Source: Ulota crispa
Taxonomy: Eukaryota > Streptophyta > Bryopsida > Orthotrichales > Orthotrichaceae
Assembly (NCBI GenBank): GCA_963920765.1
Contig: OY987250.1
Span: 5,828,001 to 5,892,000 of the forward strand
DNA: 64,000 nucleotides
Direction: 5' to 3'
The position numbers and the translations under genes are program-made. Shown piece after piece: positions 1 to 63,640 of the stretch (within the stretch, counting starts at the first letter, position 1; every line of letters starts with the position of its first letter). The notes below the pieces were generated by a model. It was not told the DNA's origin, did not search any database, and saw nothing but the letters and a program-made list of their open reading frames with translations.

Positions 1-479
1 TCAACCAAATTTGAAACAAAATTTTTTTTATGCATGTGTGACTGTAGGATCTTGTAGAAGAATGGTTTTAGAAGAGATGGAAAAAATTTCAGAGGTTTCA
101 ACCTTGTGGATTGGAAGTTAGAACGGTTTGAATATTCAAAAACATCTTGTGAAAAACCGGGCAGCTACCCTTCATAAGGTGAAATTCCTAAGGAAAAAAG
201 GCCATGTGGGTGGTGCTTCTCTAAATTCCTTATCCCGCCTAAGTAAAGTACATGTCAAAAAAGTTTCAAATCATTTGGAGTTGTATAACATATGGAAAAA
301 AATTAGTAAGTAAAAAGAAGTAGAGAATGATTCAAAACACTAAATTGTTAAGAATTTAATTTTGGAAATGAAAAATGCCAATCTCAATGGTCATAATTTT
401 GCCATAAACAATATTCATCCTTTGGTTTTGTTTTTTTTCCAAAATGTTGAAAATTGAGTATTATAAAGGACTTCAAAGT

Positions 480-851
480 TTATTTTGGAGTAGAGAATTT
501 AGAACTGCCCGCAAACAAAAAATCCTCATAACTTTCATCTCATTGATCTAAACAGAATGATTCAAAACTTCCTACATTCACATAAATCTCCTAAACCAAT
601 TTAAAAAATTATTTTTGAAAAAAGTGATTTTTTAAAATCTGCCCAAGTTGCCCGCTGAACGTAAAAAACAACATATTAGACCATAACTTTTTACTCATAA
701 TTCCAAATATCATGGGGTCTAGTGCATATGAAAGATAAACCTTGTCCCCACATTCTAGTAAAATTTCAACCTAAAATATGAAAAGCTGCAAACGCAAGTG
801 CTTGCCCGAAATTGCTATGTTTCTAAAAAAGGGGGTTTGGTCCTTTAGGGG
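480..851. repeat. Solo right arm of TTAA-flanked foldback element
   Basis: The end reads toward CCTTTAGGGG followed by TTAA at 852-855. The internal text (CTCATAACTTTCATCTCAT and neighbours) matches the arms of the complete elements at 19548-20252 and 20784-21496. No left end is visible, so it is a truncated copy. The left limit is approximate. Confidence 0.6.
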
Positions 852-1102: not shown

Positions 1103-6372
<5,270 letters not shown>

Positions 6373-11213: not shown

Positions 11214-11350
11214 ACCATCACTTTAACCCCTGAGCGCCCAGACCATATTCACCAAAATCAAGGTTTTTGGAGACATACAACTTTGATGCATCATATCTCC
11301 GTCAATCGGATGATCTACAAAAAGTGACCATTGAAAATAGTGGAACACCT

Positions 11351-15723: not shown

Positions 15724-17588
15724 ATGGCAAATTTGCGACGATCTCAAAGGTTGAAGCGTGATCTCCCCGAACCAATACACCTGCAACCAAGTTCGGATGA
15801 TTCTAGGTAGCTCTTTTGCAACTAGCTCATCAATGCTACTTACATCATGCTAGTGTTCGATTTGAGCTATGAACATAACGCTTTTTATGTTAGTTCTTGA
15901 CTTTGAATAAGAAATTTGGTATAGAGGTATAAATTTGTGACCAAAGGTCTTCTTTTTTGGTCTTGGCTTGTTTCAATGCCACAAACTTGTTTAATTTGCT
16001 TGTCATTTGTTTGACTCCAGTGAAGAAGACAGTCCAAAATCAACAAACTCTACAGACTCTAGCGAAGACGTCGATTGGAAGCCTACAAGGGGGGGTAAAC
16101 GTAATTTGGTCACTTCATCCAAAAGCTTTGGGTCCTTGCCCTTGTCCAAGATCCATGTTGTTCGTCCTTTATACTGTAAGCAAGTTCAAATCCTTTATCA
16201 ACTAGCTAGTATCCATCTAGAGCTCAAGTGAGATTCTATATTCTGTAAAACGTAACTAGCATAGATGATTAAAATCACTGAATTAATAATGTGTTGTTAA
16301 TAACTAATGAACTAAAGTGTGTTAGTCACACATCAGAAAATGTTTATACTAAAATGATGGGAATTTGGGAACTCCAGATCTTTTGGCAGTGGAAGGGGAC
16401 GGATGGGAGGTAGTGCAATATGGCACAACATCATCTACAGCTACTGATGTTTCCATCTTTTTGGTGTCAAACCAAATCATCCTACAAGTCCCTCTAGAGA
16501 CAAAGTCTCATCATGGTAGGGAAATATTGGCAGAGTTGAAGGTGCATGCTAGCTGTTTGAAAGAATGCAGCAAGTACTTCGAGACATGCTTAAGTGAGAG
16601 ATGGTCAAAGCAAGAATCAAGCTCCTCCTTGGAGTTTTACCTTGAGGTCGACGTGGAGGTTGGTCATTACAAGGAATGCTTTGCCCACATGTATACACCA
16701 TTTCCCAAGCACTTCACGGATGTTGAAAACAGCCTGGGGCTTCTCAAAGTAGCGTCCCAGATTGAGTATCAGGAATTAATGAGCTCTGTTTGCCGGTATC
16801 TTTCGGTTGTGCCTTGGTCCGTTTCGGATGAACGGAGGATCCGACAGTGCTATACTTCATTTGATTTTCCTCAAAATCTCCCAACAGACTTGGTTGCCCG
16901 GTTGAGTTCATGTGGGAGCATAGAGGAGCACTGGAAGCAGTCATGCTCTGCAATGCAGCACTGCATACGTGGCGCTCTGAGTTCCGACAGCAAGCGCAAA
17001 ATTTGCAACTTTTATCGTCGTGTAGTTGAGAATTTTTTCCAGGATGGCACTGGGCGAAGTACATCTCCACCTTTTGAGAAGACGTTGGTCATGATTGTTA
17101 TCAAAGAGGCGAAGGACGTGGTTGCTCAGTATAATGACATATGTCCTAGGATCAGGAGAAAATGTATAGTGCGGAAAGTTCCAAGAACGATTTCTGTGAA
17201 GATTGAAGCAATCAGTTGGATACTGGAGGTTTTGTTGAAGGCACAAGTGGCTGAAGAAGTGGTTAAATACATGGTGAACTTGGCTGCCTTTCCAAAGATT
17301 CATATAGATGGCCCAGGGATGAGTAAATTTCTACAGACTATTCTACCTTCCTATGCGAAGATAATTCTTACCATTTATCATGAGGTCATTGCTGGACATG
17401 TGCTTCGGGAAATGCCAGACCGAGTTGTATTCTTGGAGAGGTGGCGCGTTTTCATTAAGGATTTTGTGAGTGACCCTCGTTATAAAGAAGTCGCCAAAAA
17501 TTGGTTCTTGACTTTGCCCTTCAAGCACCGGCAGAATCTCTTCAAATTGGAGGAGGAAGAATTTGGTTCATGCATTGTCCTGAACTGA
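15724..17588 (+). CDS. BTB/POZ domain protein, paralog 1 (C-terminus cut by a TGA)
   Basis: Probable CUL3 ubiquitin-ligase substrate adaptor of the plant BTB family related to At1g63850/At5g60050; the role is inferred from the family. Three exons: 15724-15806, 16021-16094, 16378-17588, all phases matching, 455 aa. The N-terminus is basic then Ser/Asp-rich (LKRDLPEP, STNSTDSSED). The BTB fold begins at DVSIFLV (about residue 75) and includes LKECSKYFETCLSERW and VCRYLSVVPW. The C-terminal half is the helical region of this family. The ATG near 16354 is out of frame with the BTB ORF, which supports use of the upstream exons. Compared with paralog 2, a Trp codon has become TGA at 17586-17588. 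The reading frame then stays open and homologous to 17717, so about 42 residues are lost. It could be functional but truncated, or an early pseudogene. Confidence 0.8.
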
Positions 17589-17717: not shown

Positions 17718-17819
17718 AGTTGAATTCATTGTTTCTTATAATTTAATATATTTGTGCTTGTTATGGTGCAAAGAAAATGACTTTTGCATCAATAAAAGGA
17801 AGTGAAAGTTTGTGAGGTA

Positions 17820-18144
17820 AGGTAGGACGCTCATAAACTGACCATCTAAGGGTGAAACTGAATTTTGGGGAGGTGAAACTTTTTGGAATAAATTTTAGTA
17901 AATTTTCCTTGAAAGACAAGAGGAATTGGTATTTGACCCAAGTTGTTTCATATTTTTTAGAGCTTTGTGGAATTAGTTATGAAATTTTGAAGTTTAAGTG
18001 GCATAAGGCTTTAGAACTGCCCATCTCTTGAAATGTACACTGCTTGTACATGGGTGAAGGTTATGAAAAACAACATGTATACATGGAGTATTGTTGAGAA
18101 GGTGGGTGGTTTTAGAACCTAAGCACTTTTCAAACCTCCTACTT
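17820..18144. mobile_element. AGGTAGG-end MITE with TA flanks (empty of the TTAA insertion)
   Basis: The ends AGGTAGGACGCTCAT and, reverse strand, AAGTAGGAGGTTTGAA are flanked by TA. The interior matches the copy at 20704-21742, which carries an extra TTAA element; here the same site reads TTAG without insertion. TA duplication suggests the Tc1/mariner group, but the ends are not classical Stowaway. Confidence 0.7.
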
Positions 18145-19543: not shown

Positions 19544-19547
19544 TTAA

Positions 19548-20252
19548 CTCTAAAGGACCATTGTCCGTTTGGAGACAAATGGAATTTCGGCATGTACCTA
19601 TGGTTAAACTATTTTGCGTGATTTTTAGAAATTTTTATTGAAAGTGAGGCATTCAAAGATCTACATGAGAATGTAATTTTTTCTTCATTTTGACATTTAT
19701 TGAAAAAGCTAAAAATGAATTTATGGAAAACAGGGGACCCCGGGCAGCCCAAAAACTTTTTTAAAAATTGCGTTTTTTTCTAATAAAAATCTAAAAGAGG
19801 TTCTTTAGACTTATATAGACATGGGGAGCTCTAAATCATATAATTTTGATAGATGAGATGAAAGTTATGAGAAGTTTTAGTTTGCGGGTAGGTTGACTCC
19901 ACACCTACCTGCAAAATAAAACTTCTCATAACTTTCATCTCATCTATCAGAATTGAATGATTCAAGGCTCCCCATGTCTATATAAGTCTAAAGAACCTTT
20001 TTCAAATTTTTATTTGCAAAAAACGCAATTTTTAAAAAAGTTTTTGGGCTGCCCGGGGTCCCCTCTTATCCATAAATTCATTTTTAGCTTTTTCATTAAA
20101 TGTCAAAATGAAAAAAAAATTACATTCCCACGTAGATCCTTGAATTCCTCACCTTTAATAAAAGTTTCAGAAAATCACACAAAGTAGCTTAGCCATAGGT
20201 ACATGCCCAAAATCCCATTTGTCCCCCAAAAGGGCCCTTGGTCCTTTAGGAA
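19548..20252. mobile_element. TTAA-flanked foldback element (piggyBac-like ends), 705 bp
   Basis: TTAA lies at 19544-19547 and 20253-20256. The ends are CTCTAAAGGACCATTGTCC and, reverse strand, TTCCTAAAGGACCAAGGGCC. The two halves are inverted copies meeting near 19895 (a GTAGGTTGACTCCACACCTAC hairpin). The whole element could fold as one hairpin. It has no transposase. Confidence 0.8.
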
Positions 20253-20703
20253 TTAAAGATGTAGGTACCAATTCAATTAGAATAATGGAATCATGAATGA
20301 AGTAGAACCATTTATATGGTTAGCGCTTTCCCATCCTTTACAAATTCTTCTTCTTATTTTCATGTTTTTATGCGGGATATGTTCTCTCCTTTTATAGTCT
20401 ATACCAAGAGATTTATACTCAAAGAATATTGTAGAACTAATCGTTCTGTTACGTGAAATAGTGAATATAAACTTCCTGCTGTAAAAGAAAATAGTTGTCC
20501 ACACACTTGCAAGTGTTTTGCTCTGATAAAAGAATTCGATGCAACAACCAATCAGCATTGAAAGATGAGAAATCCTTCACACGACAAACAAACAGATGAA
20601 AAACAAATCACGGGTTTGAGATAGGGTAATGTGGGTGAAAAAGAAAATCGTGGCATTGAGATAGGGTCATGTGGATGAAAAAACAAATCGTGGTATTGAG
20701 ATA

Positions 20704-21742
20704 AGGTAGGAGGCTCATGAATGGACCATCTAACGGCTGAAACTGAATTTTGGGGAGGTGAAACTTTTTGAACTATTTATTAACTCCTAAAGGACCAAGG
20801 GCCCTTTTGGGGACATTTGGGATTTTGGGCATGTACCTATGGTTAAACTATTTTGCATGATTTTCTGAAACTTTTATTGAAGGTGAGGAATTCATAGATC
20901 TACGTGGGAATGTAATTTTTTCTTCATTTTGACTATTATTGAAGAAGTTAAAAATGAATTTATGGAAAAAGCTGCTCCCCAAGTAGCCAAATTTTTTTTT
21001 AAATTTTTTGTTTTATTCAAATAAACATCTAAAATAGGTTCTTCAGACTTATATAGATGTGGGGAGCTTTGAATCATTCAATTTTGACAAATGAGATGAA
21101 AGTTATGAGAAGTTTTAGTTTGCAGGTAGGTGTTGTTTCAAACCAACACTTACCCGCAAACTAAAACTTCTCATAACTTTCATCTCATCTGTCAGAATTG
21201 AATGATTTAAAGCTCCCCACATCTATATAAGTCTAAAGAACCTATTTCAGATTTTTATTTGAATAAAACAAAAGTTTTAAAAAACTTTTTGGCTGCCCAG
21301 GGAGCAGTTTTTTCCATAAATTCATTTTTAACTTCTTCAATAATAGTCAAAATGAAGAAAAAATTACATTCCCACGTAGATCTATGAATTCCTCACCTTC
21401 AATAAAAGTTTCAGAAAATCATGCAAAGTAGTTTAGTCATAAGTACATGCCCAAAATCCCTAATGTCCCCCAAAAGGGCCCTTAGTCCTTTAGGGGTTAA
21501 TAAATTTTCCTTGAAAGACAAGAAGAATTAACATCGAACCTTTTTTTTTTTTTTTTGGAGTTTTATGGAGTTAGTTATAAAATTTTGAAGTGCAAAGGCC
21601 ATAGGGCTCTAAAACGGTTCACCTCCTCAAATATACTATGCTTGTACATTTTTGAAACTTATAAAAAACAACATATACACATGAAATACATTTGAGAAGG
21701 TAAACGATTTTAGAACCTGAGCGGAATATGAGCCTCCTACCT
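20704..21742. mobile_element. AGGTAGG-end MITE interrupted by a TTAA element
   Basis: The outer ends AGGTAGGAGGCTCATG are present inverted at both sides with TA flanks (20702-20703, 21743-21744). The interior matches the uninterrupted copy at 17820-18144 except for the insertion between 20780 and 21500. Confidence 0.8.
20784..21496. mobile_element. TTAA-flanked foldback element, 713 bp, nested
   Basis: TTAA lies at 20780-20783 and 21497-21500. The ends are CTCCTAAAGGACCAAGGGCC and, reverse strand, CCCCTAAAGGACTAAGGGCC. The halves are inverted copies. Removing the element plus one TTAA gives a site of the same length as the empty copy at 17870-17903, with TTAA there reading TTAG. This supports a 4-bp TTAA target duplication and precise insertion. 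Confidence 0.87.
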
Positions 21743-22554
21743 TAGGGTCATGTTTTCAATCAGTTCTGCATTCCCCCTCTAAAATCAATCAATAGTTTTG
21801 TAATTTCTTTATGGCACAAGCAGTCGAATGAAAAACCCATCATAATTTGTATACTGGAAATCTAAGTCAATGTACAAGCTTAAATGTAAATCAAATATTC
21901 AAACATACAAGTTTTGGATTGTTTTGAACCTGTTGGAGTTTGTTTCTGATAAGGGACTCATCCATTTGTACGTCATGAAAAGCCGCAATTCATGTATTTT
22001 ATTTTCAATGGACTTGTTTGGTAAGTTTGAGGATCAAAGAATTTTGTTTCCAGTGAAACAAAAAACCAATCAGATGACGAACATTCACACATGTTGGAAA
22101 GAACAATACGTAATAAATTTGTGTATGTCATTGAACCCATTACAGTCTGAAATTTCATACATGCTAAGGTATGTACACCTTTCTTCTACCGGTCCCCAAA
22201 GCCAACCCTTAAGAGCTATGTTTGAGGTGTTCACTACTGACTAAGAACCCAAAGTGGAGTAGTGAATGTCACTTGCACAAGAAAGTTTTGTCACATGTCA
22301 GCTTAGGATTTAGTTTGGGAGGGTTGGGATTGAGACCGTTAAGCATATTTATAAGAACACATGCACGCAGTTTCAAGGGTAATTTAGAGTTGTTTTTAGG
22401 GACCTTATGAGTTGTGACTTTGCTCTCTGATATAAAAAAATCTACAATTAATTTTTCCACAAAAATTAAGTTATGTAATTGCTTGTTGAAAGGCCAATCC
22501 TACAAAAAAAAATCTTGAATATTCCAAGACCTTGGGGTACCCCCAAACCCTTAA

Positions 22555-22880
22555 CACCTAAAGGACCATTGTCCCTTCAAGTGGCAGGTTGGACTTTGGG
22601 CATGTACCTATGGCTAAACTACTTTGTGTGATTTTCTGAAACTTTTATTGAAGATGGGAAATTCAAAGATATACTTGGGGATCTCACTTTTTCTACATTC
22701 CAACATTTGATGAAGGAGTTGTGCATGAATTTATGAAAGTTTGGGGAGGACTACCTATCTGGGTAGCCCAAAAATTTCTTTAAAAATTATTATTTTTTAA
22801 AACAATATTTTGAAGTTGGTTCTTTAGGTTTTTTTATTCATGAGAAGCTTTGAATCATTCAAATTCAATGAATGACATGA
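22555..22880. repeat. Half of a TTAA-flanked element
   Basis: TTAA at 22551-22554 is followed by CACCTAAAGGACCATTGTCC and a left arm matching 19548-20252 (GGGCATGTACCTATGG, TTTCTGAAACTTTTATTGAA). The right half is missing. From about 22890 it is followed by a fragment of the CATATTTG MITE. Confidence 0.65.
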
Positions 22881-23479
22881 AATTTATGAGGAGACCGAAT
22901 CTAATACCTTCATTTTGGCGTTTAAACTCCAAAGCGGAGAAACGCTGGGTTTAAGGTGAAGTACAACTTGGGAATCTAGTTTTCCCAATTTAATGAATAT
23001 GGCGTTCAACACTAAGGTTTCATGTTCACATGTTGTATATCTTTGTAATTACATCTATTCACTTCCATAGATTCTCCAAGATTTTAGAGGTAATGGTTAT
23101 GGGGACAATGGTGCTTATAGGTGCTGCTACCTTACTACAACAAACAAATCACTAATCCCCTATTTTTGCTTACCCTTTGAGTTTAATGCAAAAATGAAAA
23201 ATACATTGTAATGTTATCCCGATTGAACAAAACTAGCGGTATAAATGTACAATAGGACCGTAAATTCTATTTTACTCTATTTGAATAAATGAGTGTCAAA
23301 GTACTTGGATAATGTCTAGTGAGTACATTTACATATTTTATGAGTACAATACCTTTTACATTGTTTTAGATTGTGCATGTGGCTAAGGTCCTTCAAACAA
23401 GGTAGCAATAGATACAAGTGATTTTTCTTGTACTCACGCTAGCCAACTAATGGCTTGATTTGCCAAACATTAGGGGGCT

Positions 23480-26273
23480 CTTAAAGGGCTCAAATTTTCC
23501 TAATCTTTGGAAAAATGAAGCCTTAAATTTCTCAAGGTGGTATCTTGTTGTTTTCCTTGCGTACTTACATGAGAGAGCTCATGCTGCCACTTTTCCTCAC
23601 CTTGTTAGGTACACCAATTTTTTTGGTTTTCATGTGAAAAGAGGCAACTTTGAGTGAGAATACCAATGTTTGATTTGTTTCCCCAATTAAAAGCGCTTTG
23701 AAAAACATCAAATTTTTTAGATTTGAAAACTCCCTTTCACTGATTATTGAGGCTTAATGTTAGGTTCTTATAACTACAACATCCTATTCTTATAGCAAAA
23801 TGCTACTTTCTTGGTGACATGACATTTGTCTATGGACTAAGACTTCAAACGTGGTATAGCATGTCAAGCTAAAACTCCCAATTTTCTATCTGTCAAGTGA
23901 TCATATTTTGAAAAATCATGAAAACTTTAGATTTGGTACATAATTAAAAGAAAAGATAGAAGAAAATAGAAAAAACTATAGTAAAACAGAAGAACCTAAG
24001 GAAAAATAGAATAAAACTACAAAAAAAGTAAAAGATAAAATCAATAAAGTTAAAAGTGGAACATGAATGTAAAAGGGGGAGAAGAAGGTACTTAGAGGGT
24101 TATGAGTATTGTTATTTTTGGTGTCATTTCCATATATTTTTTATATGTAGCATGACTGGATACATTAATGTTTTTTTCCTATTTTGATTGTCCAATTCAA
24201 AAAACACATATTTGATTGTTTATGTTTAGATTGCTATTTTACATACTTGTAGTGATAGTAATTCTAAGTTCTCTTTCTACAAACTAGTAAAAAACAAAGC
24301 AATATATTTTGAGAGATTCTTCTTAAATGTTCCATTGAAAAGGCTCAAAGTCTTTCTTCAAGCCTTTTGTTGTGCTTGTGACGTTGGTATTCACGACCGT
24401 GCAGTAGCGGCAGTCTCCTTTGTTTCTTTGCGGTCGTGTTGTTGTCCGAAGTTTGATGGTTAATTTGCAAAGTTCCAAGAGGTTGAAACGTGATCTCCCT
24501 AAACCAGTAGATGTGCAGAGAAGGTCAGATGACTCTAATCCAAGATCAATGGACTCTACAAACTCTGGTGGAGACGCCAATTGGAAGTCTACAGGTAAAC
24601 ATAATTTGATCACCTTATCCAAAAGTTGTGAGTCCTTACTTTTGTCCAAGACCCGTTTTGTTCATCTTTTTATACTATAAATAAGTTCAAATCCTTTATC
24701 AAGTATCGGTCTAAAGCTCAAGTGAGATTCCATACTATATGAAAAGTAATTAGCATAGATGATTAAAATCCATAAAACTAATAATATGTTGTTAAATAAC
24801 TAATGAACTATAGTGTGTTAGTCATACACTAACAATTTTTGTTCTAAACGAATGGCAACTTGGGAACCAGGTTCTTTGGCAGTGGAAGGGGACGGATGGG
24901 AGGTAGTGCAATATGGCATGACATCATCTACAGCTACTGATGTTTCCATCTTTTTGGTGCCAAACCAAATCAACCTACAAGTAGAAACAGAGCCTCATCA
25001 TGGTAGGGAAATACTGGCAGAGTTGAAGGTGCATGCTAGTCGTTTGAAAGAATGCAGCAAGTACTTTGAGACATGCTTAAGTGAGAGATGGTCAAAGCAG
25101 GTCCCAAGCTCCTCCTTGGAGTTTTACCTTGAGGTCCATGGGGAGGTTGGCTATTACAAGGAATGCTTTGCTCACATGTATACACCACTTTTAGATAACT
25201 TCACAGATGTTGAAAATAGTATGGAGCTTCTCAAAGTAGCTTTCCAGATAGAGTATCAGGGATTAATGAGCTCTCTTTGCCGGTACTTATCAGCCATACC
25301 TCATGATGAATGGAAGCTTCAACAAGACTCTTATTCATCTGATTTTCTTCAAAAGCATGCAACAGACTTGGTTGCCCGGTTAAGTTCAAGTGGGAGCAAC
25401 AAGGAGTGCTGGAAGCTATCAATTTCTATAATTAAGCACTGTATTACTAGTGCTCTTCGTCAGAAAAATGCCTGCAACTTGGGTTGCATTTTTTATCGTA
25501 TTGTAGTGGAGGAATTGTTCTATGGCCTTGAGCAAGGTACTTTTGAGAAGGACTTGGTCACAATTGTTAACAAAGAGGCAAAGAACATGATTGTTAAGTT
25601 TCATGGTAAGTACAATTCCAAATACAATTGGAGAAACATTCAAGTTGGTGGATATGCAGTCAAGCTTGCAACAATCAGTTGGATATTGGGGGTTTTGCTA
25701 AAAGCACAAGTGGCTGAAGAAGTGGTTGAATGCATGGTGAACTTGGATGGCTTTGCAAAGCTTTGTATACTTGCTTCAAATTGTGGAGCAACTCTAAAGG
25801 CGGTGGTACACAACTTTGCAATGATTATTTTGACCATTTATCGTGAGGTCATTGCTGGACATCTGCTTTTGGGAATACCAGATCGATCTGCACTCTTGCT
25901 GAGGTGGCGCGTTTTGTTTGAGAGACATGTGAAGAAGCGTCATTATATGCAAGCCACAGAAAATATGTTTATGACTTTGCCCTTTGAGCGACGGTTGGAT
26001 CTCCTCAAATTGAAGATGTACAAAGGCCAAAAGTTGGACTTTGAAATGTACCTTGGCTCAAGTTGGCTTGGAAGCATGTTGACCAGCGAGTGGTTTAATG
26101 AAGAGGAACTGTTGAAGGCGGGAGTCCAAGTGGATGCAGAGTTGGACTCTACTCCCATGGATTCTTGAATTTGAATTCATTGGTTCATTATAAGAGTTAA
26201 TATAGTTGTGCTTGCTATGGTACTGCAAAGGGAGTGGCTTTCGCATTAATATAGGAGGTGAGAGTTTGTGAGG
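23480..26273. repeat. Segmental duplication, copy 2
   Basis: Partner of 14385-17817. It lacks the Tourist-like MITE and the first BTB intron of copy 1. Limits are approximate and set by where similarity can still be followed by eye. Confidence 0.85.
24456..26168 (+). CDS. BTB/POZ domain protein, paralog 2 (full length)
   Basis: Same family and inferred CUL3-adaptor role as paralog 1. Two exons: 24456-24594 and 24871-26168, joined in phase 1 (ACA G|GT), 478 aa. The N-terminus is basic (SSKRLKRDLPKPVD) then acidic/Ser-rich. The BTB region starts at DVSIFLVPNQINLQV and includes LKECSKYFETCLSERW and LCRYLSAIPH. The helical C-terminal half ends NEEELLKAGVQVDAELD. An alternative start at 24852 would use only the long exon, but the conserved splice junction in paralog 1 favours the spliced form. 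The intron that separates exons 1 and 2 of paralog 1 is absent here: the coding sequence runs straight through the place. Intact frame and full C-terminus suggest this is the functional copy. Confidence 0.85.
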
Positions 26274-26672: not shown

Positions 26673-28160
26673 TATGAATTGCAAGCTAGTGCTATCATGC
26701 AAGTAGAACACAATAATTATGTGTTAATTTGTGAAAAACATTTTCCCAAATAAACAGTTTTTTTTGGATACTAAATTTGAGAATATTTTGGTGATTTAAA
26801 GTGAACATTTGATAACTCCTTCAAGATATTTCATTACTGATATAAGGTCTTGAAATTTTTTTCACAAAGTTCACTCTAAATCACCTAAAAACTCTTAAAA
26901 TTGAAAAATTTAAAAGTCCCAAAATTGATTTTTTCCCCAAATAAACAAGTATTGTATTGTAGAGCGTCTTGCAATATATGTTCTCATTTAGTTTGAGTTC
27001 ATACTATCTACACGAACAATACATGACGTACTATTGGTATAAAATTCAACTTTCTTCTCAATTTATTTTTGACGCTTGGAGTTTTAGAGTATTTGTCAAC
27101 TTTAGAGCAATTGACATTGACCCCAAAAATTCAAAAATTCAGTTTATATATTTTTGAATTGAAAATTGTCCAAATTTAGTTAAATATAGCATATGAATTG
27201 ATTGAGAGTGTGAGTATTTTGAACTTGCCATATACAACCCTTAAAAGGTCCATTGTTCCTACGGGGACATATTGGATTTTGGGCATGCTCATTTTATTGA
27301 GATTTTTTATCATTTCTTTTTCTTTTCTTTTTTGAGATAAGGATTTGCAAGGGCTATGTGGGGATATAATATTTATTGAAATTGAATTTACAATTCAAAA
27401 ATTATTGGTGTTTCATGAATATTTTAATTCAAGGTGTAGGTTGAACATACTATTCTCCTTTTACTTCTCCTAAGGGCAACCAATGAAGGTATAACCCTTC
27501 ACTAGAGTATATCCAAAACAATACTATTAGCTAAAAAAATTATATCATGTGTAAAACATAGTAATTTTTAAAATGCAATAGTTATAAGAAATTTGGTTTT
27601 TCTTAAAAAAGAATTGTGGTCATTAATAAAGGTAAAGTCTTTCAATTTGTGGTTTGGATTTCTATGTTTCAATGAACACTATCATAACCTTACTTGAAAT
27701 AGAGCCATATGGTTTTGCAAAAATCACTTATCAAAATCTGACAAAATTTTCACACATAGTTGCAATGTTTTTGATGGCAAGAATATGCATCATTAGCATC
27801 CAAATGATAGTGGTATTTGAATCAAAAAATGCATTTTAACAAATAATTGTTCTTTATGTTCAAAACCTTGTCAATAGACTGACAAGGCTAAAGATGAGTA
27901 GATGGTAGAGATTGGTTGCTTATTGCAATACTCTTTAGATAGACCCCTATGTTTTTTTCAAAAAAACTCCTTGTCAACAAAAAAGATAAAAACTATGAAG
28001 GCACCCTTGGATGCAAGGCTTGTTTTGAAAGCCAAATATCATGTAGGTCAAAGAAATGTATGTGTCAATCATAAGAAACTTTGTTGGACAACTTGATTTA
28101 TGGTCTATACATATCAAATCCACATCCAATAGTACTTATTGCTATAAGTATACCTACTCT
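26673..28160. other. AT-rich spacer, no gene recognised
   Basis: Short ORFs without recognisable domains (for example 26969-27157, 27654-27839). A weak inverted repeat (AAGTGAACATT.../...AAAGTTCACTCTAAATCACC) lies near 26795-26890, and a fragment like the TTAA family interior near 27236-27300. Confidence 0.45.
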
Positions 28161-29151: not shown

Positions 29152-32100
29152 TTACATAACAAGGGTCAGTTGTAGTTTAGGGCGATTAGGTTGAGGTTCA
29201 ACAACCTCAATCCGCACACGAACAGTACTCAACACTTTGAATACCCGGCTTCCATCGTTACTGCGAATTGTTTGGTTCTCATCATCCACCATCCACATCC
29301 CTTCAGCTGCACTCTCGGAAGAGCCCTTGGCTTCTTTTCCAACCAGGTATACAGGCCCTTCTATTCCGAACCTGCAACACCATTTACTTACTGAGTGGAA
29401 CAGATTTTATTTTTAACAAATGTCCAGCAGACCGTATCCCTATCACAATAGTCATTTTAACCCCTAAATGCCCAAGGCCTTTCTGGCCTTTTCAAAGTTT
29501 TCATGAAACAGGACAATCAACGAACCTTTTCATAAATCTCATCAGCTTTTTTAAAGTTGTAACAGTACTAATTTAAACTAAACATGTTAGAAAACACAAC
29601 AATATCATTTATAGTTTGAAAGATTATAATGTTTGAACATGAGGGTGTTAAAACTGCAAAAGTGACTTGAAGTCTTCCAATCCTCATTTCACATGTCAAA
29701 TCTAAAAAGTTGGTCACCAAAAAAATATGAGCTTTAAGGTCATTACATGTCTAAGCTCAATCAATTTACGGCTTTCAAAATCTACTCCTATCTTTTTTTT
29801 AAATGAATTCCTAACGTGGATTTTCCTCCAAGCTCTAGTGTATTTGAGGCTCATTTTCAAGATTTCCCAACACTAGAAAACTCAAGATTGCAGTGGACAC
29901 CCTTGTACAAAAACTTGAGTAGAAAAATTATCAACATTCATTTTCAAAATCAGATTTTTGATGTTAGAAATAGACTTCGAAACAAACTTGTATTGGAAAA
30001 AATTTACCAAAAATAGTGCTTTAATAAGGTTTTATTCATCTTCAAAGTTTTGTAAAAACCCAAATTGGGTGCCTTGGGCATTTAGGGGTTATTTGAAAAA
30101 GGCAAGTCAAGGCAGAACAGATCCATGTAAATCAATTTCAGAGAAAAGAAAACGAGGTCAGGTGACGATTAACTTACTTGGGAACAAAAACTATAAATCC
30201 GTTGGATCGTATTTTAACGACTCTGGACTCCTCCTCAGTTGGCCTGCAAATGTTCAGCATGCACCCCCAGTCGGTAAAAAACAAGGAAAGCAACGCTTTA
30301 ATTCATTGTAGCTCTCAGACGCAATAAAAATCCGAGACTTTTGACAGGTTGACTCACCGCTTCTTAAAAAAGATAACTGTATGGAGTTCCACGGAAGCCC
30401 GGCCAGCCATTTGAGCATTGCGGTGCCGGTAGTTTAAATCTGAATGAAATGAAGGAAAAACTTCATCGGTTTAAACACGGTATTGCAATTAATCATAATA
30501 CTAAGATAAGATTCTCGAGGGGGAAACTGGATCAATGTTGCACTCGGACGGGGTATTTTCTACAGGGAGATGTTGGATAATGGTTCCTTTAAGATACCCG
30601 TTTGAAGTCCATCACCTTTAATTACCTCAAGGGCTCTGGTGTAAGACCCGTATGATACCAGTCGAACTACGGTATTCACATAGAGTTCCCACACAACAAC
30701 GGACACCACAAGATAATCCAAAAGAAAAAAGAAAAACGAAGAGCCTTACGACATAGGAATGGGACGCTTACTGTCAGTAAGACTTGTGAGAGTAGAAGCA
30801 TCCCTTAATTCTGGTGGTAGAGTACTCAAGCCCAAAGCCGCAGCAAGCAACCTGTGCACGATCACATCTGCAATGTTGCATTCATGCGGTTTGAGAACCA
30901 CCATAAAACACTCAAATAAACAAAAAAGACAACCCAGAAAACCAGTATCAGTACTACACAACCTGGGATGCAATGTTATAGAACTACCCATCCTGAAATA
31001 AATTCTAAATATGTTGTAACCCTGCTCAATTTCCTTGAGTCAAACCTGCATATCTCCGAATCGGGGAAGTAAAATGTGTGTACAGCGGTGCAGAGAGCCC
31101 ATAATGAAGATATTCAGGGAAGCTCAGTTCTCCACTGCCAAAGTACACAGCCTGTTTGACAAGAATCGAACAGAGCAGAGGATAAAAGTTATAACTACAA
31201 TGAAGGAAAACCAAGTGTACGAGACTCAAGTCTAGATCGAACAAACTGGAAGAAAACGTAATCAGACGACTCCAACTCCTTTTGAACAAAAACATTACTA
31301 AACCTTCTCTGGAATTAGACCCACGTGGAAAGGTTCAAAGAAGCTAACCTGTGTCATGCATCGAGTTGCCAGAATTCGAATGAGCTTGTTGAAGTAAGGA
31401 TCATCACCCTACAAAGCAAAACAAATACGATGCCTATCAAAATATTAAAATTTTGTGTTTAACTTTTGTTCTGAATAAAAATTCTAATACAAAGGAAAAG
31501 GATGAGGACAGTTTAACCGGTGGACTTACCACAGCATGATCCAAGGAGTCAGCAAGTGCCTTGGACGAGGAAATATCCAACTTTACTCCAACAGCAGCTG
31601 CCGTACGTAGCAAAGGTTCAAACATTTGAGGTGTTGGCTCAGGATGCCGTCTGCAATCTCAAATATTCATTGATGAAAATCATGTGCAAATACATTCCTG
31701 GTTGGCGGACCAATTCAGCAGTCGAATGAACTACAAAACAAACGGACCGTAAAACTTGGTATCGTCATACTTGGAACTCAAAAAAAATGTTAATAGAAAA
31801 CGCACCAAGCACTATGTTTAAAAAGAAAAGGTGCGCTACTCATTCAAATACCTCAGCAAAGAGCAAAACGGAAACTCCTTCAAGATTCTTCCAGCTACTG
31901 ACATGTTGGCAGCAAGCATGAATTCCTCAACCATCTGGTTGGCTTCCCGTACTTGATACATGCCTATATCAACGTTGAAAGAAGAAACTGTCAATATCCC
32001 ATACTGCACCTGAACATTCATACAAACGGTCTGTCGACAAATTTATAGGTCTTGTGCAGTGATAATTAGTAAAAATATGTTTCATAAAAAAAATAGACTC

Positions 32101-39207: not shown

Positions 39208-40108
39208 CCCCTAAATGCCCAAGGCACCAGATTTTGGTGTCCAAAAAATTTCAAGAAACTTTGAGACCTTGTTGAAGTTACAGATTTTATTGTTTTGAGG
39301 TTTTTTTTTTTGAAAAAGATGAACATTGAAGTTAGCTTCACCGTTTGAATTCAACTTCCTCCGTATCTTATTTCATTTGTTTTTGGTGGCAGGTTAACTA
39401 CAAGCATACATTTTCTATCATGAATAGAGTCATGAATAGTGTCATAGAACCTATGAGAAGTTGCCACATTGAAAAGATGGGCATCAAGTTGAGCAAAATG
39501 TGAAGATTTCCCTTGGGCACTCCCTTGGGCAATAAGGGCCTTTTTACAATTTTTTTTGACATTTAACAAAATCTAAAAGTGCTTTTGGACTAATTTCACT
39601 TGGAATGTCTTTGTTATAGAAAGTAGGATCCTTTCACCATTGAATTTTCTTTCATTCATAATGATTTTTGGTCAATAGTTGAAGTTGAAAATTTCTTTGT
39701 ATTAGATAGTTACGTTTTGATAGTTGCGTTGCAGGCTCATTTGTGAAATTGTGGTCATGGCTTTGGAAGAGGAGCCATTGGTTTTGAAGTAACAACAATA
39801 AACACTAAAGCATCCTAAGTGGTTGTCTCCCAATTTTGTATCCAAAAGTTGCCAATTTGCATTAGAAGTTTTGGGCAGCTAAAAAAAAAGCAAAAAATTC
39901 CATACTCATCATCACTCAATCACAAATATCTTAAAATTTGCGCGGCCATTTTGGATTCTTTTTGGGTAGTGCCATTTAGAAACCTTGAAGTTCAAGATTC
40001 AACGGTTACAATTGTGTTTTGATGTTTAATAGTGATCTTACAAGGACAATTCTAAAACTTCAAAACTATCTTCTAAAAACAAGAAAAAAACCCTTGGGCA
40101 TTTAGGGG
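39208..40108. mobile_element. TTAA-flanked element with CCCCTAAATGCCC ends, 901 bp
   Basis: TTAA lies at 39204-39207 and 40109-40112. The ends CCCCTAAATGCCCAAGG are inverted at both sides. The left TTAA overlaps the right TTA of the previous element. No coding capacity is recognised; the short ORFs inside have no domain. Confidence 0.8.
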
Positions 40109-60304: not shown

Positions 60305-62192
60305 CCCCTAAATGACTGACCTATGCACCACTGCTTTTAAGCTATCACTTAACTTGTTGTTATTTGGCAACTAGATTTGAATAAAAAAATTAAATTTATT
60401 TTCAAAAATGAATCAACATTCCTCCTATATTTCACAAAAAAGAATTGATTTAATTTGTACAAAATCATTTTTTTGAAAATTTTTGATGTAAAAGTGAAGG
60501 AAAATCACATCAAATAGAAAATCATTTTCAAAAATCTGAAAATTTTACCATGTGTATATTACAATGAAAAACATCATGGTTTAAACTAAATTTTTGGGTC
60601 ATTTTATAATTAGAAAATAATAGACATTGAAAATAAATTCAAAGTTCAAATTGTAATAAAATATTCAATATTAGGAAATTTTCCAAAACTCAAATTGGAG
60701 TAGAAACTAGATTAGATGGCCTTCATTTTGTGTTGGCCTCACTCAAAAAATATCATTTTTGTGGAGAAATTTCAGATTTAGAGCAAGGAGCTACAACTTC
60801 CCAAAATACACTAAAATAGCATATTTTGTGATTTGTTTTTTTTACTAACTTCTCATTTACATAAAGAGAAACACTAGCAATACTACAAATTCAATTGAAT
60901 ACTCCTCATAACCCAACATGATAAATCACCAACAAAATACGGATGAAAAAATGTTTTTCAAAATCTTTCCAGTTCACTAAACATTTGTTCAAATGCCTTG
61001 GAATGGCGCTGCCGGTGCTTCTGGGTTAAGTTATAAGGTGAGTAAGGTAGGAGGGTCTAAAAGCGCTCAAGGTCTAAAACCGTCAACCTTCTCAAATGTA
61101 TTATATTTGTACATGTTGTTTTTCATAGTCTTCAACAATGTGCAAGCACTGTACATTTGGGGAGGTGAGCAAATTTAGAGCCCTATGCCACTTCAACTTC
61201 AAGATTTCATAACTAACTAGTGTGGCCCTATGCCATTGGCCCAACTTTCACCCTCCATGCCCCCCATGCCATCTTCTTATGCCACTTGTGGATAATCTTG
61301 TACTTTACTTCAATTAAAGTTGTACTCTACTTTATTTTTAAGTGGACATCCAAATTGTACCTTCGTTAAACTTGGACTCTATCCTATTTTTACACAAAAT
61401 TTGTCATTGGCCAATCAGTCATTTTCTAAAATTTTAATCCATAAAAAACTTTGAAACTCTATAACATTCCCACCATAGGCTCGAGTGCCACCAAACCAAG
61501 CACCCGTCTTTGCAAAGAGCTTTCCAACGGTACCAAGGACGCAATGCAAGGACACACGGTCTGAGAGACCTCAATGTGACAAACATCCAAACATCCAAAC
61601 GTCCAAACAAACAAGATAATTTAAGGTATAGAAGATTTCACAAAGCTCCAAAAAATTATGAAACAACTTGGGTGAGGTGCCAATTCCTTGTCTTTCAAGG
61701 AAAAGTTACCAAAGAATATACAAGAAGTTTCAACTCCCTAAAATTTTGTTTCAACTGCTTAGATGGTAGGTCTATGAGCCTCCTACTTGAGCTCAAATTG
61801 CATCCCCTCGCAATAAAGCGTCCCATAGGTAGCTTGTGAATGGATATGAGGTAGTTCTTGAATGGAGCCTCCTTAGTGATAAAAGAAAAGGTGCATTTTA
61901 TTGCAAGAGTCAATCACAATTGTTGATTTCACCTCATCTCTTTACAAGTTGCAAGGGGTTGATTTATGGAAGACCTAGAATAACAAATAGGTGTATATTA
62001 CAAAAAACCTTGACAATTCATCAACAATTGAATAATGCTTCAAAAATATGAAAAAATGTGTTACATTTGGCATCCATTTCTCTTTGTTTAAAAATTAGAA
62101 AAAAAATCTTCATGTCTTGGAAAGGCCATGAAAAGGCAAATCAACCCTTAAACTTTTTCTTTATGCGCTACATACCTTTATTCACCTCTAAT
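60305..62192. other. AT-rich spacer with repeat fragments
   Basis: TTAA at 60301-60304 followed by CCCCTAAATGACTGACC looks like a left end of the TTAA family, but no right end is found. A truncated AGGTAGG-type MITE lies at about 61043-61225. About 61445-61615 repeats 55795-55960. No gene is recognised. Confidence 0.5.
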
Positions 62193-62196
62193 TTAA

Positions 62197-63640
62197 CCCT
62201 TTAGAGACCACCAAACCATATTTTGGTTTGGGAGAGTGATATTTGGCTTATAGAGTAAAATTGTTCAACAATTTGAAAACAGGTCTTGAAGAACGCTTGT
62301 GCTCATAAGAATTTTGCATCCAACCAAATAAAAAACAATGAAATTGGGCATGTGAGTTGATAAATAATGGTGTTTATATGGCATGGCCTCAAAATTCGTA
62401 TCCCTATTTGGTCAAAGATGGATCAAAGCAACAACACAATAAATCAAACATCCAAGAAGAATGTCAACTTTCAATTGTGCGGTCCTAAAATATTTCAAAT
62501 TGCTCAAGAAATATGCTTGTATTGTTTCTCTATATGTTAGTAGTATAATTGTAGTATTTGGAGATCTATTGAAATGGTGCTATCATTTCATCTTAGAAAT
62601 TTGTTGTCCTACATTTGAGGCCAATTATTTATTGTTTTCACCAATTGGATTTTTCATAGCATTTATCAAATTTCTTGTAAAATTGTTTTTGGGTAGCAAG
62701 TAAAGTGGGATTTTCGACCCTTTTGTCCACTTAGCTACACCTTGTGATTGCTATTTTTATCTAATTTGTGTGAAGCTAGTCTCATTGAAAAGGTGGGAAA
62801 CCCTACTTTCTAAAAATATAAGGCTCTTCTCAAACAAAACTTGTATGAAGTACCGTAGTGTGACATGGGTTTTGTTTTTTATTAATTCAAAAATGTAAAA
62901 TACAAATTTCCATAAAATATTAGGAAACAAATAACAAAAATTGTGAAAAATGGGTAAGAGATATGACAAAATGTTCAGTAATTGTCCTTTGGCAACACAA
63001 AATATTTTTAATAAATCCATTGTAGTACATTGCATATTCATTATTTTTTCACTACCATATTCAAGCATCTTTTCAAATCCAAATCTAGTGCTTTCTCTTC
63101 CTTGCTACCGGTACCTTCAACCATTACCAATTCAATTAAAACCCGTTAAACCCACTCTACTTTCATTCATTATTTAAGCATTATAAGAAATTACCCATTT
63201 TTTGAATGTCCCTTTAACTTTGAAAGGACTCAATATTTTTTTCAAATTGAATGTATGACAAAAAGTCTAATATTTAAGTACTTACAAAAACAAAATCATC
63301 ATCATTCCATTTAAACAAAAACAAACCTCTTCAAATAAAAATAATAATTATTTTGTCATTGCAAAAACAAAACCCATGTCACACTACAGTAGTAAGATCC
63401 AAAACAACATAAGCATCAAAATTAGAGATTTTCCACCTACAACTCACTCAATCCTTATAATATTTCACCTCCAATGGTAGATCTAGTTGAAAATTTGATA
63501 CTTTATAATAAACAAGGTGTATTTTCTATTTGTACATTTGGATTTTTGAAATCAGGTCTCGATTTGATTCTATTGCACATCCAAGTTTACTACCCCGGTT
63601 CCTAATGGATTTTGTGAAAATGTATGTGGTCATTAAAGGG
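62197..63640. mobile_element. TTAA-flanked element, 1,444 bp
   Basis: TTAA lies at 62193-62196 and 63641-63644. The ends are CCCTTTAGAGACCACC and, reverse strand, CCCTTTAATGACCACA. An inner inverted repeat (TAGTGTGACATGGGTTTTG near 62857 against its complement near 63370) is present. Short ORFs inside have no transposase motif. The ends are only loosely alike beyond 16 bp, so this is the least certain full member. Confidence 0.6.

Follow-up and report, generated by a model that had tools for sequence, protein, structure and literature searches.

The piggyBac transposon of Trichoplusia ni and its bat counterpart piggyBat duplicate TTAA on insertion, have ends that start with CCC, and are moved by a transposase of the PF13843 family. 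The tips of animal piggyBac elements mostly start with CCC, CCCTT being the commonest start (PMC10813416), and CC[C/T]T has been given as the first four bases in the superfamily (PMC2872659). The piggyBac group has been recorded chiefly in animals. Miniature inverted-repeat transposable elements (MITEs) of piggyBac type are known from animals; the coral CMITEs have no genes, short common tips, TTAA duplications and a resident piggyBac relative, and are about 100 bp long, with about 1,600 copies estimated in one coral (PMC2872659). Here we describe elements in a 64,000-nucleotide stretch of Ulota crispa DNA (positions 5828001-5892000 of contig C9; hereafter the window) and elsewhere in the genome, which are very probably land-plant MITEs of the piggyBac superfamily, all non-autonomous transposons and some with a foldback structure. 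They share with piggyBac and piggyBat the TTAA duplication, the CCC-starting ends and a PF13843 transposase, with the DDD residues kept in one studied copy, and differ in their plant host, in a main MITE class that starts with CCCC, and in symmetric foldbacks that appear to have moved. Compared with the coral CMITEs, they range from 71 bp to about 1.1 kb, have 16,507 exact ends and include long foldbacks. A first-pass annotation of the window had proposed piggyBac-like MITEs, and this identity is supported because there are thousands of TTAA-CCC copies, 4-bp empty slots, a diverse PF13843 population with the same kind of end beside many sampled copies, and transposase-side ends whose alignments to MITE ends begin at or near base 1.

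Plants are stated in general terms to have piggyBac elements (PMC10813416, PMC10794571), and a table for the fern Ceratopteris gives 1,230 PiggyBac copies (122 kb; PMC6890710). A survey of 207 plant genomes, including four bryophytes, works with Micron and five superfamilies, none of them piggyBac, and TTAA appears nowhere in its main text (PMC12550479). Searches of open-access papers, which did not extend to subscription papers or Repbase, brought up no land-plant family of piggyBac MITEs. Because the recent plant MITE survey uses other superfamilies, even so large a TTAA/piggyBac family could go unnoticed in plants or be assigned to the wrong class. The land-plant host proposed earlier agrees with a LEAFY SAM domain in the genome (E 1.2e-27; 0 matches in 14 control genomes), LEAFY being confined, to our knowledge, to land plants and close streptophyte kin.

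Ends, flanks and empty sites

All of the ends listed in the window by the first-pass annotation were present, and 13 of the 14 were bordered by TTAA, as it had stated; the exception was TTAT at the right end of the element at 29461-30088. With up to two mismatches allowed, the end motif occurred at 15 sites in the window, compared with 3, 0, 3, 6, 4, 3, 4, 4, 11 and 4 sites in ten Markov-simulated windows; three of the 15 (20224, 20812 and 21468) were internal near-palindrome echoes. A scan of the genome (275 Mb, 157 contigs) revealed 16,507 exact CCCCTAAAKGMCC sites (8,210 + 8,297), compared with nine (3 + 6) for a reversed-pattern control, and TTAA preceded 13,916 of them (6,958 + 6,958; 84%), compared with 0 in the control. 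Looser matches to the end were collected from 18 slices of 10 kb, which were taken at fixed coordinates near one end of chromosomes C2-C9 and are not truly random. TTAA preceded 28 of these 41 matches, with T or C directly 5' of the TTAA in 21 of the 28. The elements have terminal inverted repeats with a CCC start, as in the piggyBac superfamily, and at least three classes of end can be told apart (CCCCTAAAGGACC, CCCCTAAATGCCC and CCCTTTARNGACC). Set against the CC[C/T]T start, the CCCTTTA and CCCTTCA classes match, and the fourth base of the CCCCTAAA class is C.

To look at the target site, the flanks of 26 complete elements were joined, uninterrupted relatives were sought, and the clear cases among the matches listed were examined. 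Empty relatives of three insertion sites had one 4-bp slot, and the filled sites carried two TTAA copies. For the element at 5392-5818 of L015 (L numbers denote fetched loci), one relative reads a single TTAA in the same context. The element at L027 6332-7203 was inserted in a sister element, at a TTAA within the sister's CCCTTTAAGGACC tip; this tip is intact in L020. The window element at 20784-21496 lies in a dispersed repeat, relatives of which in the window (17813-18102), L014, L027 and L056 have TTAG, TCAG, CCAG and TCAG, respectively, in the 4-base slot, the junction being ungapped. The window relative, on the plus strand, is a copy of the repeat without the inserted element and aligned at 78% over 291 bases. 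Not scored as empty sites were two of the three L015 relatives, at 3442 and 4553 (slot too diverged), one of the five relatives for 20784, at 61639 (gap near the slot), and L026 (which reads TTTAGAG) as a relative for L027; relatives of a 71-bp element in L007 were too diverged or gapped to read an empty site. Both the flanks (13,916 of 16,507) and the three empty sites agree with the 4-bp TTAA target site duplication of piggyBac.

Tc1/mariner elements (Stowaway) make a 2-bp TA duplication, and PIF/Harbinger elements (Tourist) a 3-bp TWA duplication. Plant MITEs are usually assigned to these and three other superfamilies (PMC12550479), and a TA-flanked element does sit nested at 62853-63389 in the window. 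However, TA- or TTA-targeting elements whose flanks read TTAA by chance are a scarcely credible source of the family, as all four bases are TTAA at 84% of the exact ends and the slot at empty sites is 4 bp long; Tc1/mariner and PIF/Harbinger were rejected on these flanks and empty sites. The earlier preference for TTAA over TA or TTA was upheld, the scored flanking tetranucleotides being TTAA, with no random bases outside a TA or TTA core.

Transposase genes and their ends

The genome contained at least 120 matches to PF13843 (piggyBac transposase family), the best with an E value of 1.3e-73, a count that comes from 116 scored of 528 first-look candidate places. The open frames L038:4310-5407 (8.1e-63) and L037:3847-5157 (6e-60) match PF13843 and also the transposases of insect piggyBac and bat piggyBat, whose structures have been solved. 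The catalytic aspartates of T. ni piggyBac are D268, D346 and D447 (PMC7351741). In L037, the first two catalytic aspartates aligned to D268 and D346, with N at the third position; L038 retains all three positions (TVDE, VTDN and GVDIVDQ, the first two placed by alignment with L037), and is thus the one of the two copies examined in which DDD is complete. Because the copies in ten fetched loci were mostly 32-47% like L037 or L038 (the exception, L033, was 70% like L037), the transposases are judged on their sequences to form many old lineages. An upstream open frame is present in both L037 (1924-2274) and L038 (6811-7545), with a shared stretch that is 29% alike over 72 amino acids and no Pfam match; it is possibly an N-terminal exon.

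Ends near the transposases were sought in slices of 1 kb, spanning 1.1-2.1 kb downstream, at 20 additional copies, which were picked for few stops and not at random, and were kept separate from the first eight loci. A TTAA-CCC-type end in the right orientation was present 1.5-2.0 kb past the domain in 13 of the 20 copies (12 with TTAA, one with TTGA), compared with 38 of 324 control slices (Fisher p 1.4e-7). The downstream ends in L055 and L057, located 1,622 and 1,631 bp from the domains, share 68% of their bases over 417 bp, and their first 204 (L055) and 152 (L057) bases match a 405-bp MITE (L027:8948-9352) at 64-67%. These ends, of the CCCTTTAAGGACCGTGG class, provide a good link between MITEs and transposases, the strongest found by such comparison. 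The ends in L050 and L044 (CCCCTAAAAGACC and CCCCTAAAGGATT), 1,702 and 1,753 bp from the domain, agree at 69% over 606 bp. They match the MITE B ends in L003, L013, L018 and L019 at 67-79% over 94-596 bases, and almost all of these matches start at base 1 (that of L044 to L013 starts at base 19). The CCCCTAAARG class is likely to have a transposase with the same ends in L044 and L050. The A arms of the window foldbacks resemble the L003 A end at 73-77%, and the other end of L003 is the B end matched by L050 and L044.

Several observations weigh against the piggyBac identification or the proposed links. TTAA is absent beside 16% of the exact CCCCTAAAKGMCC ends, and internal stops are absent from just 10 of the 120 PF13843 rows. 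L038 is a 5.5-kb element with both tips identical over 13 bases (CCCCTTAGGGCCC), and these tips are adjoined by CCAT and ATAA, not TTAA. Both ends were located for L038 only, and exact CCCCTAAAKGMCC was found at both ends in none of the fetched transposase copies. Only two of the first eight transposase loci had a TTAA-CCC end in their 1.5-kb flanks. Seven of the 20 downstream slices were without an end, and, owing to the density of MITEs, four of the 20 opposite strands also had one. In L044 and L050, the apparent links could come from MITEs that merely adjoin transposase relics. Among the best 40 of 5,119 first-look candidates, none of the 39 other best matches to the L050 B end lay less than 3 kb from a listed transposase, as judged by eye, and a search of L059 for the L050 element's 5' end did not find it. 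The search that had been proposed, for a piggyBac transposase bordered by the same ends, was thus answered in part: it revealed the PF13843 population and the same kind of end beside many sampled copies, but no copy exact at both ends and, among the fetched loci, no partner transposase for the CCCCTAAATGCCC (TGCCC) subfamily. The transposase 3' slice L052, tried as a TGCCC partner, aligns with the window element at 39208-40108, but it was rejected, as another dispersed repeat takes up part of this slice and the element end lies beyond it. In the L057 slice, at about position 531, a MITE start adjoins the 3' end of the transposase element, with one TCAA common to both, as though a second insertion had targeted an existing TTAA duplication.

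Sola3 is another superfamily that makes TTAA duplications. Kolobok likewise yields them (PMC9587614), and either could in principle move the MITEs, with the piggyBac transposases as bystanders. Kolobok termini are 5'-RR...YY-3' (PMC9587614), whereas the ends here start 5'-CC, on which ground Kolobok was rejected; moreover, the MITE ends align with ends beside PF13843 genes, and such ends are commoner there than in control slices. We consider movement by another TTAA-targeting superfamily very improbable. As a piggyBac enzyme, the transposase would bind both ends, free the 3' ends, make TTAA hairpins, reopen them and insert into TTAA, leaving 4-bp duplications, if it acts as the insect enzyme does (PMC7351741). 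The MITEs would arise from internal deletion, with an A end joined to a B end, and the foldbacks from the pairing of two A ends, the foldback form then itself being copied.

Symmetric foldbacks

The first-pass annotation had described the elements as a foldback family. This is clear for two symmetric (A/A) piggyBac-type MITEs on the plus strand of the window, one of 705 bp at 19548-20252 (TTAA at 19544-19547 and 20253-20256; arms 89% alike over 344 of 352) and one of 713 bp at 20784-21496 (TTAA at 20780-20783 and 21497-21500; arms 93% alike over 353 of 356), the latter in the target repeat with empty relatives. By contrast, the element at 39208-40108 is not a foldback, that at 29461-30088 is at best a decayed one, and that at 62197-63640 has only short matching tips. 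The two clear foldbacks and a third at L008 1505-2204 (contig C1) have arms and centre in common, different flanks, and TTAA on both sides, the identical aligned columns among the three being 601 of 703, 537 of 693 and 552 of 685. The arms of L015 5392-5818 are 98% alike over 199 of 213. Because one centre recurs at three sites that differ in their flanks and are bordered by TTAA at either end, the symmetric A/A form seems to have been copied as such, that is, to have moved.

Tests in cells showed no activity of wild-type insect piggyBac on two left ends, and excision without integration on two right ends, a hyperactive mutant being more relaxed (PMC7351741); with piggyBat, neither symmetric end pair transposes (PMC11707139). 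These failures favor an alternative in which the foldbacks are immobile as such, each A/A hairpin having been made in place from an A/B element after insertion, and formation of this kind could account for single foldback copies. We regard it as unlikely for the foldbacks in general, though deserving of some weight, as the three with the same arms and centre stand in different flanks (L008 on another chromosome) and empty relatives exist for 20784-21496 and L015 5392-5818. In addition, judging from the title of one study, asymmetric ends reportedly inhibit piggyBac in mammalian cells, which counts against foldback mobility being surprising. The symmetric foldbacks constitute a natural experiment on whether piggyBac needs unlike ends, and the plant transposases could be tested for that in cells.

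As RNA, 20784-21496 is predicted to form a near-perfect hairpin of about 350 bp (-530 kcal/mol; z -46, 20 shuffles), and foldback hairpins of about 350 bp may be small-RNA sources. High copy number and hairpins as possible small-RNA sources are features in common with the usual plant MITE superfamilies (PMC12550479). A library of 15 elements, partly taken from the same 18 slices, covered 17,673 of their 180,000 bases (9.8%), and 5,222 of the 64,000 bases of the window. We hold it to be evenly balanced whether piggyBac is an old, many-lineage, dominant cut-and-paste system of a land plant, with about one tenth of the genome as MITEs, and whose transposases mobilize like-ended foldbacks, unlike the tested wild-type insect and bat enzymes.

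Other features of the window

Besides the two foldbacks, three elements had been listed as complete or nearly complete, all on the plus strand, and their ends all exist. The element at 29461-30088 belongs to the CCCCTAAATGCCC subfamily, with TTAA on the left, TTAT on the right and arms 69% alike over 278 of 314; its relatives in L004, L006 and L018 are at 74-86%. Another CCCCTAAATGCCC-subfamily MITE, of 901 bp, lies at 39208-40108 with TTAA on both sides, and has relatives in L013 (87-90%) and L017 (66-73%). The element at 62197-63640, with CCCTTTA ends and TTAA on both sides, is in fact an interrupted MITE with a normal length of about 904 bp: copies of 902-906 bp are present in L015, L026 and L037, and more copies in L009, L013, L020 and L027. 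The interruption is a nested inverted-repeat element of about 537 bp at 62853-63389 (no strand assigned), with CNGTAGTGTGACATGGGTTTTG ends and TA flanks at 62851-62852 and 63390-63391, which is not present at this position in any of seven further host-element copies. It is not piggyBac-type and, going by its TA duplication, is Tc1/mariner-like.

Of the four ends first listed as solo, that at 852 is not solo but the end of a minus-strand MITE cut by the window edge (6-851), which has a TTAA-CCCCTAAAGGACC end at 851 in the minus-strand reading and its other end outside the window; bases 68-862 of a complete element in L026 (L026:4269-5130) align to window positions 6-851 at 63%. The end at 22551 extends as a truncated A-type end at 22555-22893 (plus strand), preceded by TTAA and 84% like the L003 A end over 337 bp. 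The other two, TTAA-CCCCTGAGCGCCC at 11227-11260 and TTAA-CCCCTAAATGACT at 60305-60340 (both plus strand, with arbitrary extents), had no match in a small library of elements. A decayed A-end fragment absent from the earlier list was found at 27244-27374 (plus strand; 67% over 135). Elsewhere in the genome, L007:1505-1575 and L019:1779-1849 are candidate very short piggyBac MITEs, each 71 bp long, with ends of the CCCCTAAATGCCC type and flanked by TTAA (right flank TCAA in L019).

A separate dispersed repeat is present in L059, L052:830-1001, L010, L011 and L022, in both orientations and often as opposed pairs; in L059 it includes stretches such as ATATCAACCCCC. The window also contains two open frames that are alike by eye, at 16365-17588 and 24852-26168, one on each side of the foldbacks; they are probably a gene duplication, and the frame at 16365-17588 has a weak BTB/POZ ankyrin-like match, below the cut-off.
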